A stretch of 64,000 nt of DNA from Seleniivibrio woodruffii (GTDB lineage: Bacteria > Chrysiogenota > Deferribacteres > Deferribacterales > Geovibrionaceae). The notes below the pieces were generated by a model, which worked only from the letters and a program-made list of their open reading frames with translations, made no database searches and was not told the DNA's origin. The position numbers and the translations under genes were made by a program. Numbering within the stretch: the first letter of the stretch is position 1; each line of letters begins with the position of its first letter. Shown here one piece after another: positions 37,025 through 49,176 of the stretch. The stretch covers positions 124,001 to 188,000 of the forward strand of contig NZ_JAJUIS010000004.1 in the NCBI RefSeq assembly GCF_029267515.1, read 5' to 3'.

Positions 37025-38101
37025 TTATTCTCCGTATTTAAATACCGCCGCGCACGCTCCCTCTGAAGACACCATGCAGGGACCCACTGGGCTGTCCGGT
37101 GTGCAGGCGCTGCCGAAAAGGGGACATTCGCTGGCTCTGATGTATCCTTTCAGAACCTCGCCGCATCTGCATCCGGGGGTTTCCTTCTCCCCTTCAAGGC
37201 TGATGCCGAATTTCTCAAACGCATCGTATTCTTTATATTCCGGTCTGAATGCCAGACCGCTGTCTTCTATCCAGCCGATGCCGCGCCACCAGCATCCCTG
37301 CTTCTGATATACGGTGTTGAGGATGTTCTGAGCTTTTTTGTTGCCCTCTTCAGAAACAACCCTGCCGTACATGTTTTTCACTTCGTATTTTCCGGTGTTC
37401 ACCTGACGCACCATCTCAAGCACTGAAGACAGTATGTCCACAGGCTCGAATCCGGTTATAACAGCCGCCATGTTGTGCTCCACCATCGGATCGTAAAGGG
37501 ATGTTCCCGTCACCACTGTGACGTGTCCGGGACAGACGAAGCCGTTTATGTTGAGGTTCTCGTCATCGAGTAGGATGCCGAGCACCTCCGGCATGGTCTT
37601 GTTATATGGTGTTACGGACACGTTTTTTACGCCCTGCTGTTTGGCAACCAGAGCAACGGAAGCCACTGCGGGGGCTGTGGTCTCGAAACCGATACCGATG
37701 AAAACTGTCTCTTTGCCTGTCTCCTTTGCCACCTTTATAGCGTCCAGAGGAGAAAACACTATGCGGATATCCGCTCCGGCACTTTTAAGCTCCTGCAAAT
37801 TCTGTCCCCTGCTGCCGGGCACCTTCATCATATCGCCGAAAGTGGTGATAACGGCGTCCTTTTCAACCAGTTTGAAGATACCGTCTATCTCGCACTGGGG
37901 AGTTACGCAGACGGGGCAACCGGGCCCTGAGACCAGCTCTATGTTCTTTGGAAGTACGCTGCGGATGCCGAATCTGGCTATCGCCATGGTATGACTGCCG
38001 CAGACCTCCATGAATCTGTATTTTCCTGTGGCTTCCCTCTGTATCTGTTTTATAAGAGCGGCGCACAGCTCCTTGTCTCTGAATCCCTCAACGAGCTTCA
38101 T
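37025..38101 (-). CDS. hypD: [NiFe]-hydrogenase maturation protein HypD
   Basis: I choose the ATG 38101 (MKLVEGFRDKE); upstream codons run inside hypC without support. The 358 residues match HypD: the VCGSHTMAIARFGI cysteine site, GPGCPVCVTP, and the C-terminal cysteine cluster that binds a 4Fe-4S centre. HypD with HypC carries the Fe(CN)2CO unit for the hydrogenase active site. The start overlaps hypC by 14 bases. The clients include the hydrogenase at 45158-47553. Confidence 0.95.
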   Translation of the reverse strand: MKLVEGFRDKELCAALIKQIQREATGKYRFMEVCGSHTMAIARFGIRSVLPKNIELVSGPGCPVCVTPQCEIDGIFKLVEKDAVITTFGDMMKVPGSRGQNLQELKSAGADIRIVFSPLDAIKVAKETGKETVFIGIGFETTAPAVASVALVAKQQGVKNVSVTPYNKTMPEVLGILLDDENLNINGFVCPGHVTVVTGTSLYDPMVEHNMAAVITGFEPVDILSSVLEMVRQVNTGKYEVKNMYGRVVSEEGNKKAQNILNTVYQKQGCWWRGIGWIEDSGLAFRPEYKEYDAFEKFGISLEGEKETPGCRCGEVLKGYIRASECPLFGSACTPDSPVGPCMVSSEGACAAVFKYGE

Positions 38102-38336
38102 CCGTTTCCATCCTGTCCATCTCGTCAGCAAGCTCGGAGAGCGCCTCAAGGGTCTTTATAGCCTCTTCCTCGTCCATCTTCGCAAGCGCCATGCCTGCGT
38201 GCACCATAACCCAGTCGCCTATGACGACCTCGTCTGGCAGCATCATCGTAGACACCTCGCGTTTAGTGCCCGCTATGTCCACCACAGCGGAGTATTCATC
38301 CATTGTTACTATCTTTCCGGGAAATCCAAGGCACAT
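38088..38336 (-). CDS. hypC: [NiFe]-hydrogenase maturation chaperone HypC
   Basis: The 82-residue protein has the diagnostic N-terminus MCLGFPGKI with C2 as the iron-binding residue, and a helical C-terminus. GGAGGGG precedes the ATG. First gene of the hypC-hypD-hflX unit; no hypA, B, E or F in the window. Confidence 0.95.
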   Translation of the reverse strand: MCLGFPGKIVTMDEYSAVVDIAGTKREVSTMMLPDEVVIGDWVMVHAGMALAKMDEEEAIKTLEALSELADEMDRMETDEAR

Positions 38337-39708: not shown

Positions 39709-40068
39709 TTACCATTTTACGGGTTTTGTGTGACAGGCGGTACAAAGTGTGCTGTCCGGCACTTTTGCTGTTTTTCTTATTTTGTCATGGCAGGTGAAGC
39801 ACATACCCTCTTTTGTCTTTTTAATGGGTTCGTTCTCTTTAACTCCGCCCTCATGGCAGGCTCCACATTCCAGTTTCGCTTCGAAGTGCAGTCTGTGATA
39901 AGCCTTTAATGAGCTGTTCTCTTCCGCCTGTTTGTCAAATTTATCCAGCAGTCTGTATTTGTTGCCTTCATACAGCAGGCTGAAACTCCATGCCGCTATG
40001 AAAACTATCACTATAGACAAAAGACTGCGGATAAGTACCTTTTTGACGTTCTTTTCCTGTGCGCTCAT
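39709..40068 (-). CDS. Membrane-anchored triheme cytochrome c
   Basis: The start is placed at ATG 40068, behind GGGGAGA; 119 residues. One N-terminal helix (about 12-32) anchors it, followed by three CxxCH heme motifs at 68-72, 90-94 and 109-113. A lone conserved HFEAKLECGACH suggests a bis-His arrangement as in cytochrome c7-like modules. It is probably a periplasmic electron carrier on the inner membrane, upstream of yedF and the rhomboid gene. Confidence 0.88.
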   Translation of the reverse strand: MSAQEKNVKKVLIRSLLSIVIVFIAAWSFSLLYEGNKYRLLDKFDKQAEENSSLKAYHRLHFEAKLECGACHEGGVKENEPIKKTKEGMCFTCHDKIRKTAKVPDSTLCTACHTKPVKW

Positions 40069-40249
40069 CGATTCTCCCCTATGCAATGAATATCTACAGT
40101 TATAATCAATCGCAGTGGGAAAATCCATTAAAGAATGAATGAAGACATTATAATTGGTGATTTGATAAGTGTTAACAAGCTATTGGTTTGCTTTTTAGAA
40201 GCGAGCAGTTCAAGGCGTTTGTTCTCCTGAATTTTGGTGGTTAGATGCA

Positions 40250-40390: not shown

Positions 40391-41878
40391 TTACTTCTTA
40401 TGGCAAGTGTTACAGGAAGTCTTAACTTTCTTCTCTTTGTGACACTTGATGCAAAGCTCGTCGTGGAAGACGTTTTTGGAACCTTTAACTTCTTTCACTT
40501 CAAACTTCAGAACACCGGGTTCAGAGTGACATTCCGCACATGCTACCCTTTCAGCGTGACCTTTGTGGTCGAAGATAACGGGTGCTTTTGTGGGTGCCGG
40601 AACGTGGCGCTCTGCAAGATTTATGGTTTCAGAACCTTCGAGCATAGCCATATCTTCTGCAGTGTTAACGGGACCAGCGGGTTTTGCTTCCTCTTTTGGT
40701 TCCTCGTGTTTTTTCTGCTGTGCATGTTCCTCAACCTTTTCAACGGGCGGAGTCCATGTGTCGATGGCTGTTGCAAGTTCTGCAACCTTGTCAAACATCA
40801 TATCGAAGTATTCGGGGTTGTGAACGCCTTTTGATCCGTCGTTCTCCAGAATACGGAGGATGTTTTTCATTTCATTGAAGAGTGCAAGTTTGGCTGCGGG
40901 CATACCCCTTCTCTGACCTGCATATTTGTCGCGAGTGGACTGAGCTTTCGCCAGTTTCTGCATATATGCGGACTGTGTCTCCTTCATGATGTCACTGTAG
41001 CTGGCATCGTGACATGAGGCGCATTTTTCAGGAGTGGGTTTGGAGAACGCATCGTCGTGGCAGTCTGAACACTGAAGGTCTGCCATGTACCATGCGTCGC
41101 CTTTAACAGATTTGGAATATGTACCCTGCTGAACGCCTTTCTGCATAGTGTGGCACACTGCACAGTTATCGTTTGCGGGAACTTTCGCAACGTTTCTGTT
41201 TTCATCGTGACATTTGAAGCAGGTTTCCATTTTGGGTTTGTGGTTCTTAACGCCCGCGTGTCCAATGCCAAGGTGACAGTCGAAGCAGGTTACGCCTGCT
41301 TTGTAGTGTTTAAGGTGATCGGGGTTAACTCCGATGGGACCTTCTTTCATTATATCGGGTCTACCGAATTTTTCGCGGTATTCCGGATTCACAACATCGT
41401 CAATCGGTCTGAATTCGCCCAGAACCTTGATCATAGTGTTGCGTCTGATTTTTCTGTTGAAATCGTCAGAGTGGCAGAAAACGCATGAATCCAGAGATGC
41501 GGCATGTGCAGCAGCTTTAGGATCGGTACCGAATTCTGTCAGATGCTTGATGACATCTTCTTCAGACGTAAAGATTTCGTGATAAAGGCTTCTCATACCG
41601 GCAACAACGTGGGCGTCTAAATAGCCCTGAATGCCGGGTGCGCCGTGACAGTCGAGACAGCCGACGCCGGCCTCGCTGTGGATACCTTTTCTGAAGGAAT
41701 AGTACTCGCCTCTTACCTCGACAGCCTCTTTCGGGTGGCAGGTTTTGCAGAACTCAGGCTTGCTTGTCGCATGCATCATCTGCAATGAGCCGTAACCGCC
41801 GACCGCGATTATCACTGCCAATATCAAGGTAAAGATGAGAGGATCTTTCCTGCTAAACTCTTTCAGCTTTTGCCACAT
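40391..41878 (-). CDS. Undecaheme (11 CxxCH) membrane-anchored cytochrome c
   Basis: The 495-residue protein has an N-terminal helix at about 13-33 and 11 CxxCH motifs. The first (FCKTCHPKE) right after the helix resembles NapC/NrfH-type quinol-oxidising cytochromes. Hemes 1-8 fill the first 290 residues. A heme-free helical stretch with DGSKGVHNPEY follows, like the C-terminal helices of NrfA/octaheme cytochromes, then a Pro/Glu/Lys linker and three more hemes. It probably moves electrons from the quinone pool to a periplasmic acceptor. GGGGG precedes the ATG. Monocistronic. Confidence 0.9.
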   Translation of the reverse strand: MWQKLKEFSRKDPLIFTLILAVIIAVGGYGSLQMMHATSKPEFCKTCHPKEAVEVRGEYYSFRKGIHSEAGVGCLDCHGAPGIQGYLDAHVVAGMRSLYHEIFTSEEDVIKHLTEFGTDPKAAAHAASLDSCVFCHSDDFNRKIRRNTMIKVLGEFRPIDDVVNPEYREKFGRPDIMKEGPIGVNPDHLKHYKAGVTCFDCHLGIGHAGVKNHKPKMETCFKCHDENRNVAKVPANDNCAVCHTMQKGVQQGTYSKSVKGDAWYMADLQCSDCHDDAFSKPTPEKCASCHDASYSDIMKETQSAYMQKLAKAQSTRDKYAGQRRGMPAAKLALFNEMKNILRILENDGSKGVHNPEYFDMMFDKVAELATAIDTWTPPVEKVEEHAQQKKHEEPKEEAKPAGPVNTAEDMAMLEGSETINLAERHVPAPTKAPVIFDHKGHAERVACAECHSEPGVLKFEVKEVKGSKNVFHDELCIKCHKEKKVKTSCNTCHKK

Positions 41879-45157: not shown

Positions 45158-46591
45158 ATGTCTAAAACCATCGCAATCGAGCCGCTGACACGGATTGAAG
45201 GACATCTCAAGGTTGAAACACACACCGACAGCCAAAGGGTGACCGATGCCTTTATCAGCGGACAGATGTATCGCGGCTTTGAAAAATTCCTTGAAAACAG
45301 ACATCCGGTTGACGCGGCGAGAATAGCCCAGAGAGTTTGCGGCGTGTGCCACGAGGTTCACGGCGTTGCGTCTATTATTGCGCTTGAAGATCTTTACAAC
45401 AACCCCTCTCCCCGAAACGGACATATCCTGAGGGACATGATTCTTGGTCTGCACCTTATCACAGACCATTTTCTTCATTTTTATACTCTTTGCGTACCTG
45501 ACTTTGTAGATTTCACGCAGATACTTAACTATAACGGCGGGGACACGGAGATTCTGGCGCTCAAAAACTGGGTTTCAAAGACCAAGCCACAGTTCGTTCT
45601 CAAGCGCAACGCGGGAAACTATATAACCCACACCTCCACGGCACTCGGCATCGTTGCAAACTATTTTCAGGCGCTGAAGATACGCAGCATGGGAGCTTCC
45701 GGCATGGCGATAATCGGCGCGAAGGCTCCTTTCTCCCATGCGGTTCTGCCCGGCGGCATAACGACGGACATAACGCCGGATAAGCTGATGTATTATCACA
45801 ACGTTCTTGAAAAGGTGAAACACTTCACCGTCAACTGTTACATCCCCGACGTTATGGCGGTTGCGAAGCATTTCAAGGAATATTTCAACATAGGGGTAAG
45901 CTACGGCAACTTCTACTCAAATAAAACGTTCACAGCGCTGGGTAAACCGATATTCGAGAGCGGAGTCATCTTAAACGGCAAAAGGGAAGCCTTTTCCATG
46001 GCTAACGTTAAGGAATATCTCGATACCTCATTTTACGACGGAAGCGGAAATCCGAACCCGAAAAAGAAAAACGCTTACAGTTGGACAAAATCGCCCAGAT
46101 ATAAAGGCGAACCTGTGGAGGTAGGACCTCTGGCAAGACTGATAATAGGTAACAACAGCTATTTCAGCGGCATGATGAAAAAGCTCGGCGCACCCGTCAA
46201 GTCTTCCACCATGGCGCGCCACGTCGCGCGGGCTGCTGAAACCAGGATACTCCTCGACCATATGTACAATCTTCTGGATTCATATCGTTTCGGCGAACCG
46301 ACCATAAGGCAGGTGGACTTCGCCAGAAAGGTCAGCGGAAAGGGCATAGGGCTTTCTCTTGCGGCACGCGGAGACCTTATCCACCAAATCGAAGCGTCGA
46401 ACGGTAAAATAACCAGATATAACATGATTGTGCCGAGCACATGGAATTTCGGTCCCGCGGCAAACGGCAAACGGGGTGTTGTGGAACAGTCCCTCGTCGG
46501 AACGCCGGTTGCATACAGCTCCGAAAACTCCATCGAAGTGGGCAGGGTGATAAGAAGCTATGACCCCTGCACAGCCTGTTCCGTGCATTAA
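45158..46591 (+). CDS. [NiFe] hydrogenase large subunit without C-terminal extension
   Basis: The start ATG 45158 follows TTGGAGG; 477 residues. L1 is RIEGHLKVE at 12-20, with L2 cysteines C61 and C64 in RVCGVCHEVHG. The second pair is C471 and C474 in DPCTACSVH, and the stop codon follows H477 directly. Standard large subunits have 15 or so extra residues after this histidine, cut off during maturation. Their absence is known from sensory (regulatory) hydrogenases. It is the first gene of the unit, before the small subunit, the reverse of the usual order. It would be carried to the periplasm with the Tat-tagged small subunit. Confidence 0.96.
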   Translation: MSKTIAIEPLTRIEGHLKVETHTDSQRVTDAFISGQMYRGFEKFLENRHPVDAARIAQRVCGVCHEVHGVASIIALEDLYNNPSPRNGHILRDMILGLHLITDHFLHFYTLCVPDFVDFTQILNYNGGDTEILALKNWVSKTKPQFVLKRNAGNYITHTSTALGIVANYFQALKIRSMGASGMAIIGAKAPFSHAVLPGGITTDITPDKLMYYHNVLEKVKHFTVNCYIPDVMAVAKHFKEYFNIGVSYGNFYSNKTFTALGKPIFESGVILNGKREAFSMANVKEYLDTSFYDGSGNPNPKKKNAYSWTKSPRYKGEPVEVGPLARLIIGNNSYFSGMMKKLGAPVKSSTMARHVARAAETRILLDHMYNLLDSYRFGEPTIRQVDFARKVSGKGIGLSLAARGDLIHQIEASNGKITRYNMIVPSTWNFGPAANGKRGVVEQSLVGTPVAYSSENSIEVGRVIRSYDPCTACSVH

Positions 46592-46602
46592 GGGGGCGCA
46601 TC

Positions 46603-47553
46603 ATGAACATGACAAGAAGGCAGTTTCTGGAAAACTGCGCAAAGGTTTCATCCATGGTGTTCGGTTCCTGTGTGTTCACCAATGAGGTTGCAGAAGGATT
46701 CACACGTCTTTCCGAATCGAAACGCCCGCAGCTCATCTTTATCCAGTCACAGTGCTGCACCGGATGCAGCATTTCTGCGACATACGGCAACGAAGAGGAT
46801 TTCATCAATTTTATAAGTAATATAGTGCGGCTTCAGGTGCATCCCAACCTCTCGTTCAGTCAAGGCACCGACTACATGCGCTCCATAATAGAGGTTTCAA
46901 ACTCCGGTCCATTCTACCTCGTTTGCGAAGGCTCAGTTCCGGCCCGAATGAAAGAGGCTTGCATATTCAACGACGAACCGATGTACGACTATCTCCATAA
47001 GCTCATGAAAAAGGCGGCGGCGGTTGTTGCTTCGGGCACATGTGCCTGCTACGGTGGTATTCCGGCATCCAATCAGAACGTCACCGGAGCCATACCAATC
47101 GACGAATACATGCGGCGGATGAAGGTTAATAAGCCTCTGATAAAGATACCCGGATGCCCCATAAACCCCGACAGGCTCCTTGGCACTGTGGCTTATATCG
47201 TCGCAACCGGCAAGATACCCGAACTTGTTAAAGGCGTACCGAAAAAGTACTATCCAGACCTGATACACAACCAGTGCGGACGCTATCAGGCTTTCAATCA
47301 GGGACACTATACGAAGAACTTCGAAACGGAGAAGCTGAACTGCCTCCTGAAAAACGGGTGCAGAGGTCCCGTGACCTATTCCGACTGCCCCACAAGAAGA
47401 TGGAACGGCAAAGTCAGCGTCTGTATCGAAAGCAACGCACCCTGCATAGGCTGCATACATCAGGAATTTCCGTTCAGAACGGCGCTCTACCTTGAGGAAG
47501 AGTCATTCAAAGACCTTACATGGTCTGAAATGAAAAAACAGATGGAGAAATAG
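46603..47553 (+). CDS. [NiFe] hydrogenase small subunit, Tat-exported
   Basis: The 316-residue protein starts with [10 protein letters not shown], a twin-arginine signal (R5-R6). The proximal cluster ligands include C52 and C55 (CCTGCS), GTCACYGG and PGCPINPD. The C-terminal domain has the medial/distal cluster cysteines ([38 protein letters not shown]). There is no C-terminal membrane helix, and no cytochrome b gene follows, so the enzyme is not attached to the quinone pool in the usual way. Electrons probably leave through the distal cluster to a periplasmic heme protein. Confidence 0.95.
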
Positions 47554-47555
47554 CC

Positions 47556-49139
47556 GTGAAACAAGACTTTAAACAATCCATAAAATTTCGGGCAACACTC
47601 TATATCCTCGCCCCGCTGCTGGCGATATTCGCCGTTCTCATCGTTATGGACATGCGCAAAAACTCTCTCACGAAAACCGCCATGAATCAGTACATGGACT
47701 ACCTGAAAGAGATGATTTTCATGTCCACATACGACTCGCTGAAAAAGGGGAACATGACACTGTTCAGCGAACTGCTCACCGAGATAGGCGACTACGAACT
47801 CGTGAAAGAGTTCTCGCTGCTGACTCCGCAGGGATTGGTGCGCTATTCTTCTCACCCCGAATCGGTGGGAAAATCCGAAGACCTGTCCCACGCATCTCAG
47901 GACAAAGAGGTGCTTTATGTGGAAAACGGCATAACAACATTCTACTACCCGGTAACAACGGCACAATACTGCCTGCGCTGCCACAGGGAATGGTCGGAAG
48001 GAAGTGTCAACTCCTTCTATAAGGTGTCGCTGGACTCCTCTTCCATCTCAAAAATCGAAACAGCTTCATGGATAAACTACATTCTCCTGCTTGTGGCGGG
48101 GGTATCCCTCGTCGTCATACTCATAGCTGTCATGCAGAAGCTGGTTTTCGAAAGGCTCCAGAAGGCTAACGACATAATGGACGACCTCTGCTCCGGTCAG
48201 GGCGACCTCACCATCGAGATGAAAGTGAGGCGCATGGACGAGATAGGCACCCTGAGAACCAAGATAAACAATTTCATCGGACACCTGCGGGATATGATAG
48301 CCGAGCTGAAAGACAAGATCGAGGACGTTGACGGCGACGTTTCCCACATCCGTTCGTCCATGGATACAATAAACGGCTCCGTTCAGGACAACGTTTCAAG
48401 TATCGCCACCATATCCGCGTCTTCCGAGCAGGTTTCAGCAACCCTGCACGACAACATACACAACCTCTCCGCAATCACCGACAGTGTGAATGAAAAGAGA
48501 GAGGCGATATCGTCTTCACTTAACAACGTAATGGCTATCACAGGAATGATAAACGAAATGACATCGTCTGTTGAATCGCTCAGCAAAACAATTTATGCCC
48601 TTGAACAGCGCTCGAACGATATCAACAGCATAACCAACCTTATCAACGAGATTGCCGACCAGACAAACCTGCTGGCGCTGAACGCAGCCATTGAGGCGGC
48701 ACGGGCGGGAGAAGCCGGACGCGGTTTCGCTGTTGTTGCAGACGAGATACGCAAACTTGCCGAGCGCACAACAAGCGCAACGAACGACATAAAGTCGATA
48801 GTTTCGGACAACACGAAGATAATCACAGGAATAGTGAGCGAGATTGACCGCAACAAAGACCACGCCCAGAGCATGAATCAGGGCATCACCGATATTCAGG
48901 ATTTCACCAGAGAGGTTGAAAAGACGATGGAGGACATCACCAGAAACATTGTCAGTCTGACCCAGATGATGACCCAGAGTATTTCTGCACTGGAAGTGAC
49001 GCTGAACAGCATCGAAAACGTAAACGACAATATGGCGCACACAGGCAAGGTGTCGAACAGCATCGCGGAAACGTCGAGATATCTCGGTGAAAAAAGTTCG
49101 CACATGCGTGCCATCGCAGATAAGTTCAAAACACGATAG
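47556..49139 (+). CDS. Methyl-accepting chemotaxis protein with periplasmic c-type heme
   Basis: The GTG start at 47556 lies 2 bases after the hydrogenase small-subunit stop, with GGAGA before it. The 527-residue receptor has a helix at about 14-32, a periplasmic domain, a second helix at about 172-194, HAMP, and the signalling tip around [19 protein letters not shown]. The periplasmic domain contains one heme c motif, CLRCH (C139, C142, H143), near its end. Heme-bearing chemoreceptors such as Desulfovibrio DcrA are known redox or oxygen sensors. No C-terminal CheR-binding pentapeptide is seen. Co-expression with a periplasmic hydrogenase suggests it senses H2 through electron transfer; that is inference. 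Confidence 0.93.
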
Positions 49140-49148
49140 AAAAAGTAA

Positions 49149-49176
49149 GGGGCGGAAAATCCGCCCCTGTTTTATT
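49149..49176 (+). terminator. Terminator after the hydrogenase-chemoreceptor unit
   Basis: The stem GGGGCGGA / TCCGCCCC with a short AA loop and T-rich tail is identical to the hairpin at 51423-51450. Confidence 0.85.

Follow-up and report, generated by a model that had tools for sequence, protein, structure and literature searches.

Can a periplasmic hydrogenase serve as the H2 detector of a chemoreceptor? The question is raised by a 64,000-nucleotide stretch of Seleniivibrio woodruffii DNA (RefSeq assembly GCF_029267515.1, contig NZ_JAJUIS010000004.1, positions 124,001 to 188,000; hereafter the window), in which the large and small subunits of a [NiFe] hydrogenase and a heme-bearing methyl-accepting chemotaxis protein (MCP) are encoded as one gene unit. 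An earlier note, made from the letters of the stretch, had proposed that the exported enzyme oxidizes H2, reduces the receptor heme and steers cells along H2 gradients. We put the probability that these proteins form a transmembrane H2-sensing complex, with periplasmic H2 oxidation reducing the receptor heme and so setting the signaling state, at about three in four.

Gene unit in the window

All three genes lie on the forward strand. The first (45158..46591) encodes a hydrogenase large subunit of 477 amino acids (PF00374, E=6e-103). The second (46603..47553), 11 bases further on, encodes a small subunit of 316 amino acids that scores above the cut-offs of PF01058, PF14720 and TIGR00391 and bears the twin-arginine translocation (Tat) motif MTRRQFL. 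The third (47556..49139), whose GTG start lies 2 bases beyond the small-subunit stop, encodes a methyl-accepting protein of 527 amino acids (MCPsignal PF00015, E=2e-37). GGAG-like ribosome sites are found 5' of the large-subunit and receptor genes, and the unit ends at an intrinsic terminator (49148..49168, forward strand) with a 9-pair stem and a T-rich tail (-19.6 kcal/mol, z -3.95). The coordinates agree with the organization described in the earlier note, from the Tat-tagged small subunit and the 2-base gap to the terminator behind the receptor. Its statement that no electron acceptor is encoded alongside also holds: the gene list of the three-gene unit contains no cytochrome b, NrfD-type anchor or other acceptor. 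In this genome of 2.83 Mb the unit is flanked by a hemL-like gene, divergently oriented, and by genes unrelated to it.

Conservation of the gene trio and exchange of outputs

The relatives examined include many metagenome-assembled genomes; gene calling was mechanical, and some sets are cut by contig ends. We found ~56 large subunit–small subunit–receptor sets, a few of them truncated in this way, in two phyla, Deferribacterota and Desulfobacterota; the adjacency reported from the window is conserved, and chance adjacency or an artefact is ruled out by conservation in this many loci. The Deferribacterota were surveyed across 60 genomes, the query being only the large subunit. Behind every hydrogenase with at least ~43% identity to the window large subunit (16 loci besides the window, with orthologues at 73–97% and paralogues at 43–53%) come a small-subunit gene and, after it, a gene for a one-CxxCH protein whose N-terminal 200 residues are similar to the window sensor. 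At locus L051 (genome G007), the small subunit and the receptor are separated by a repeat-like stretch of ~1.6 kb, which contains an open reading frame that recurs at another place in the locus. When 84,980 species genomes were scanned with the sensor, matches came from Deferribacterales and Desulfuromonadales only; two other phyla, sampled with 39 and 291 genomes and no positive control, yielded no sensor.

The domains that follow the sensor differ among sets and comprise MCP, MCP with CZB, PAS-PAS-GGDEF-EAL, PAS-PAS-GGDEF and PAS-HisKA-HATPase. Kinase partners occur only in the Desulfuromonas relatives, the Desulfuromonadales trio ending in a histidine kinase, whereas the window partner is an MCP. 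Hydrogenase and sensor are retained while the output is swapped, a pattern that a sensory unit would predict and that is hard to explain through metabolism alone. The reading given in the earlier note is thus supported but should be broadened: the unit of hydrogenase and heme sensor is conserved, and chemotaxis is just one of three output kinds (MCP, kinase, and GGDEF with or without EAL).

Receptor linkage and the large-subunit C-terminus

The window large subunit ends in ...DPCTACSVH and has no C-terminal extension, and the separate respiratory large subunits of the same genome carry an extension of 15 residues. The extension is naturally absent from the H2-sensing groups 2b and 2d and also from groups 4c, 4e and 4g, a list with no group 1 enzyme (PMC7294309). 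Further large-subunit neighborhoods were gathered from 136 genomes of the order to which the Desulfuromonas matches belong. Counting loci with enough downstream DNA, a heme sensor lies downstream of 39/40 extension-less large subunits and 0/18 extended ones (Fisher 4e-14, a value that should not be taken as one from independent loci). All receptor-linked large subunits whose C-terminus is covered by the sequence end exactly at ...CxxH.

A second sample took the sensor as query in 395 Desulfobacterota genomes, 28 of which gave a match. Among the best 22 loci, one per genome, the sensor stands directly behind large- and small-subunit genes in 20, and 14 of these sets are new. Their large subunits are extension-less in every case (20/20), and their small subunits all have a twin-arginine motif and no anchor (20/20). 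A mirror-tree correlation between hydrogenase and sensor (Spearman 0.72) was dropped as support, since MCP domains correlate equally. We think it fairly probable that such units constitute a separate class of sensory hydrogenase, in which a periplasmic, group-1-derived, extension-less [NiFe] detector reduces the c heme of a Cache domain and so drives chemotaxis, kinase or cyclic di-GMP (c-di-GMP) signaling, and that this class is long established in Deferribacterota and Desulfobacterota.

Several observations weigh against a sensory role. Regulatory hydrogenases have a narrow gas channel in which Ile and Phe replace Val and Leu, and the gas-channel residues of the window large subunit (CGVC, FYTL) are of the ordinary Val/Leu type and do not resemble that arrangement. 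The extension-less state is not unique to sensors, being shared by groups 4c, 4e and 4g (PMC7294309). The earlier note had named hydrogenases without a neighboring receptor as counterevidence; this outcome did not materialize, although one such locus, L172, is the sole true exception among the 40 testable extension-less loci. Conversely, sensors without a hydrogenase occur at L067, L093, L094 and L207. The large-subunit tree requires only 2 changes of the extension state and 3 of the sensor state; the association therefore represents few, long-kept evolutionary events, which is the reason for the caution on the p-value above. Finally, signaling-fused heme-Cache domains bind NO tightly, and NO sensing has been suggested as their role (PMC12889525).

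This last point also favors an explanation by shared regulation only, according to which a soluble catabolic uptake hydrogenase supplies electrons to cytochromes of the periplasm, while the receptor responds on its own to NO, redox or some other ligand of use in those same conditions. Such a role would be in keeping with the soluble periplasmic hydrogenases of sulfate reducers, which use soluble cytochromes c (PMC2702500), and with the multiheme cytochromes encoded nearby (40391-41878). We nevertheless consider it unlikely, because the pairing is tight across two phyla despite the changing output domain, because it occurs with extension-less, unanchored enzymes only and with none of the 18 extended ones, and because the conserved unit includes no gene for an electron acceptor.

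The hydrogenase

The Ni-Fe ligands of the large subunit (Cys61, Cys64, Cys471 and Cys474) are kept in 39/39 aligned relatives, and nearly all Cys and His ligands of the small-subunit Fe-S clusters are kept in aligned related sets. Conservation of the Ni-Fe site therefore argues that the hydrogenase is not decayed and should be active; a decayed or non-catalytic enzyme is ruled out on the same ground. The C-terminal transmembrane anchor seen in L055 and L056, two respiratory small subunits that this genome also encodes, is missing from the window small subunit. Judged from its sequence, the window enzyme should be an active, soluble and exported hydrogenase.

Like group 1 uptake hydrogenases, the enzyme has a Tat-exported small subunit, three Fe-S clusters and Ni-Fe ligands in the large subunit, but the extension that marks that group and serves endopeptidase processing is absent from the large subunit. 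Its NF033181 score of 447 is below the cut-off of 600. The nearest solved structures to the enzyme are periplasmic [NiFeSe] hydrogenases, although the nickel ligand that is selenocysteine in those relatives is Cys in the window enzyme. The medial-cluster position of the small subunit is occupied by a fourth Cys, Cys274, where standard [NiFe] enzymes have Pro. In one clade of receptor-linked small subunits (L167, L168 and L169), a proximal-cluster Cys is replaced by Asp or Glu (CTGD, CSGE, CSGD).

The heme sensor of the receptor

The N-terminal input region of the receptor (residues 1-200; 47556..48155) consists of a first transmembrane helix (TM1), a periplasmic sCache-type heme domain and a second transmembrane helix (TM2), as delineated by alignments, an AlphaFold model and Foldseek. 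The CLRCH heme c attachment motif (residues 139-143; 47970..47984) is the only CxxCH in the receptor and lies between two predicted membrane helices, in agreement with the periplasmic position given in the earlier note. The model (pLDDT 84.9) combines a small beta sheet with a long helix and places the heme helix (137-141) between strands 126-134 and 151-160; two long helices bracket the sensor, and the receptors of relatives have two hydrophobic stretches. With membrane helices on both sides of the sensor and an MCPsignal domain (PF00015, residues 339-499; 48570..49052), the protein has the hallmarks of an MCP.

Foldseek places Cache-type domains (WalK, CitA, DctB) at the top of the sensor's matches, followed more weakly by the heme chemoreceptor domains of GSU0935 (3b42, prob 0.98) and GSU0582 (3b47). 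Comparing a sensor profile with the PDB sequences brought no useful match, and the fold search alone was informative. In the predicted model, a Cache fold with CxxCH in a segment inserted between beta strands corresponds to the sCache_heme fold; the match to PF11845 (sCache_heme; DUF3365/Tll0287) reaches 12.4 bits, below the curated cut-off of 24.1. The fold is in line with the heme-Cache family that a 2026 paper defined without any mention of hydrogenase (PMC12889525).

Cys139, Cys142 and His143 are present in 39/39 aligned sensors, so that loss of CxxCH, which the earlier note had listed as evidence against its proposal, was not seen. Met67 (codon 47754..47756) is present in 92% of these 39, and an alignment of 21 diverse sensors shows no variation at G65, M67, F70, L88, G93, C139, C142 and H143. 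Across sets with differing outputs the input domain has 34 invariant positions. By analogy, Met67 is likely the second axial heme ligand besides His143, because the heme of GSU0935 is ligated by His and Met (Met60) on reduction. That heme is high-spin when oxidized and has a potential of -251 mV, compared with -156 mV for GSU0582, and the switch is the proposed signal (PMC8396549). Three distant sets (L090, L091 and L092, from three genomes in another family-level group) have MCPs with two CxxCH motifs and Arg at the Met67 position, possibly a di-heme version.

The conserved heme site bears on a second explanation, contact sensing, in which the docked hydrogenase would signal by its own shape or redox state, like HoxBC with HoxJ, and the heme would be structural or tuning rather than an electron acceptor. 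Regulatory hydrogenases are indeed thought to signal via protein contact with a kinase and require no receptor heme (PMC6978683). The occurrence of CxxCH in every linked sensor together with the conserved Met suggests a redox-active heme, and a redox change of the heme is the proposed signal in the relatives GSU0935 and GSU0582 (PMC8396549); we regard contact sensing as quite improbable.

A third explanation reverses the electron flow: the receptor would sense periplasmic redox, and the hydrogenase would reset the heme by transferring its electrons to protons. In principle hydrogenases work in both directions, and the pairing by itself does not fix which. At pH 7 the H2/H+ couple lies at -414 mV. 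Because this is well below the heme potentials of GSU0935 and GSU0582, reduction of the receptor heme by H2 would be downhill, and related hemes (-156 to -251 mV) are too positive for H2 evolution except at very low H2. Reverse use is thus highly improbable, and reduction of the heme by H2 is the direction that we adopt.

Proposed mechanism

H2 sensing by the window proteins would begin with a heterodimeric [NiFe] hydrogenase that assembles in the cytoplasm, undergoes no C-terminal processing and leaves through the Tat system. The soluble periplasmic enzyme would then dock onto the sCache-type heme domain of the receptor, and we infer that the two form a complex. H2 would be oxidized at the Ni-Fe site, with electrons passing through the proximal, medial [4Fe-4S] and His-ligated distal clusters to the single c heme of the receptor. 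Heme reduction may alter its spin and coordination (His143 and probably Met67), shifting TM2 and with it the output. For the window receptor that output would be taxis along H2 or, as in some MCP classes, another Che-controlled process; we infer taxis along H2 as the likely behavior from the MCP type of the output domain. Five CheA genes occur in the genome, one of them ~5 kb from a paralogous set on contig C10.

Neighboring genes and related loci

The paralogous large subunit–small subunit–heme-MCP(+CZB) set lies at G000:C10 (L039:4590-8914) in the same genome. Genes for CheA (C10:163064), for CheY-like and STAS-like proteins and for another MCP are found near it, a grouping that points to a dedicated chemosensory cluster. 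Another candidate H2 sensor begins ~20 bases beyond the end of the window (G000:C13:188020-194736; L057:6020-12736), where a row of genes encodes a small subunit without Tat signal, a large subunit with an 11-residue extension, a PAS-HisKA-REC hybrid kinase, a response regulator and a GAF/HD-GYP protein. Within the window, hypD- and hypC-like hydrogenase maturation genes lie ~7 kb upstream of the unit on the opposite strand (37025-38336, reverse strand). A membrane-anchored cytochrome with ~11 CxxCH motifs (40391-41878, reverse strand) adjoins a 3-heme protein (39709-40128, reverse strand).

Elsewhere, Denitrovibrio BM704 has an orphan heme-sensor-PAS-GGDEF-EAL protein (L067:7893-10571) beside a pyruvate-kinase-like gene, the same gene that stands beside the intact set L054 of BM701; BM704 seems to have lost the hydrogenase. 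At the edge of another contig, an extended Hyb-type large subunit has a heme-sensor MCP (L138:2-1606) ~4 kb downstream, which might be part of a truncated extension-less set.

Significance

Known [NiFe] H2 sensors are cytoplasmic and kinase-coupled, and the module described here would place H2 detection outside the cytoplasm. If the proposed mechanism is true, an enzyme would serve as the detector of a chemoreceptor through electron hand-over, and heme-Cache domains would gain a stimulus besides NO. Hydrogenases of this kind that are annotated as uptake enzymes may be sensors. A 2025 paper on a sulfate reducer described apparent H2 chemotaxis and called for work at the genetic level (PMC12004927). 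The module offers a named gene set for H2 taxis and for H2-controlled c-di-GMP and kinase signaling in sulfate-, sulfur- and metal-reducing bacteria, with relevance to sediments, corrosion and underground hydrogen storage.

Comparison with known systems

Group 2b regulatory hydrogenases (HoxBC/HupUV with HoxJ/HupT) resemble the window system in a proposed sensing-only enzyme, an extension-less large subunit (PMC7294309) and a separate signaling partner, which is a histidine kinase both in group 2b and in the Desulfuromonas relatives. They are cytoplasmic and contact a kinase (PMC6978683), whereas the window enzyme is Tat-exported, group-1-like and periplasmic, has an ordinary gas channel and is partnered by a transmembrane heme receptor with exchangeable outputs. 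Membership of group 2b is ruled out by Tat export (MTRRQFL) and by sequence.

In HydDB, [FeFe] group C2 bears the label 'Chemotactic (putative)' and [NiFe] group 2c the label 'Diguanylate cyclase-linked (putative)' (PMC5037454), and hydrogenase-linked taxis is therefore not new as an idea. Both groups share with the window system a hydrogenase tied to MCP or c-di-GMP proteins and proposed H2 sensing, but they differ in metal site (C2) or group (2c) and have neither an exported [NiFe] enzyme nor a heme receptor. The window enzyme, a PF00374 [NiFe] hydrogenase, does not have the H-cluster that defines group C2.

The heme-c Cache sensors GSU0935, GSU0582 and DcrA likewise carry a single c heme in a Cache-like periplasmic domain, in a family spread over MCPs, kinases and GGDEF/EAL proteins. 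In contrast, the window sensor falls below the PF11845 cut-off and is paired with a hydrogenase, and its proposed stimulus is H2, received as electrons, instead of NO or bulk redox. HysAB and HynAB of sulfate reducers are the nearest solved relatives of the enzyme and share its Tat small subunit and, as in [NiFeSe] hydrogenases, its Cys-coordinated medial cluster; the window enzyme differs in having no selenocysteine, no extension and a dedicated signaling partner. We found no description of an exported [NiFe] hydrogenase paired with a heme-c receptor in the literature searched, which left subscription journals mostly outside its scope. As far as that literature shows, this pairing is new, and the window system works like a regulatory hydrogenase yet stands outside group 2b.

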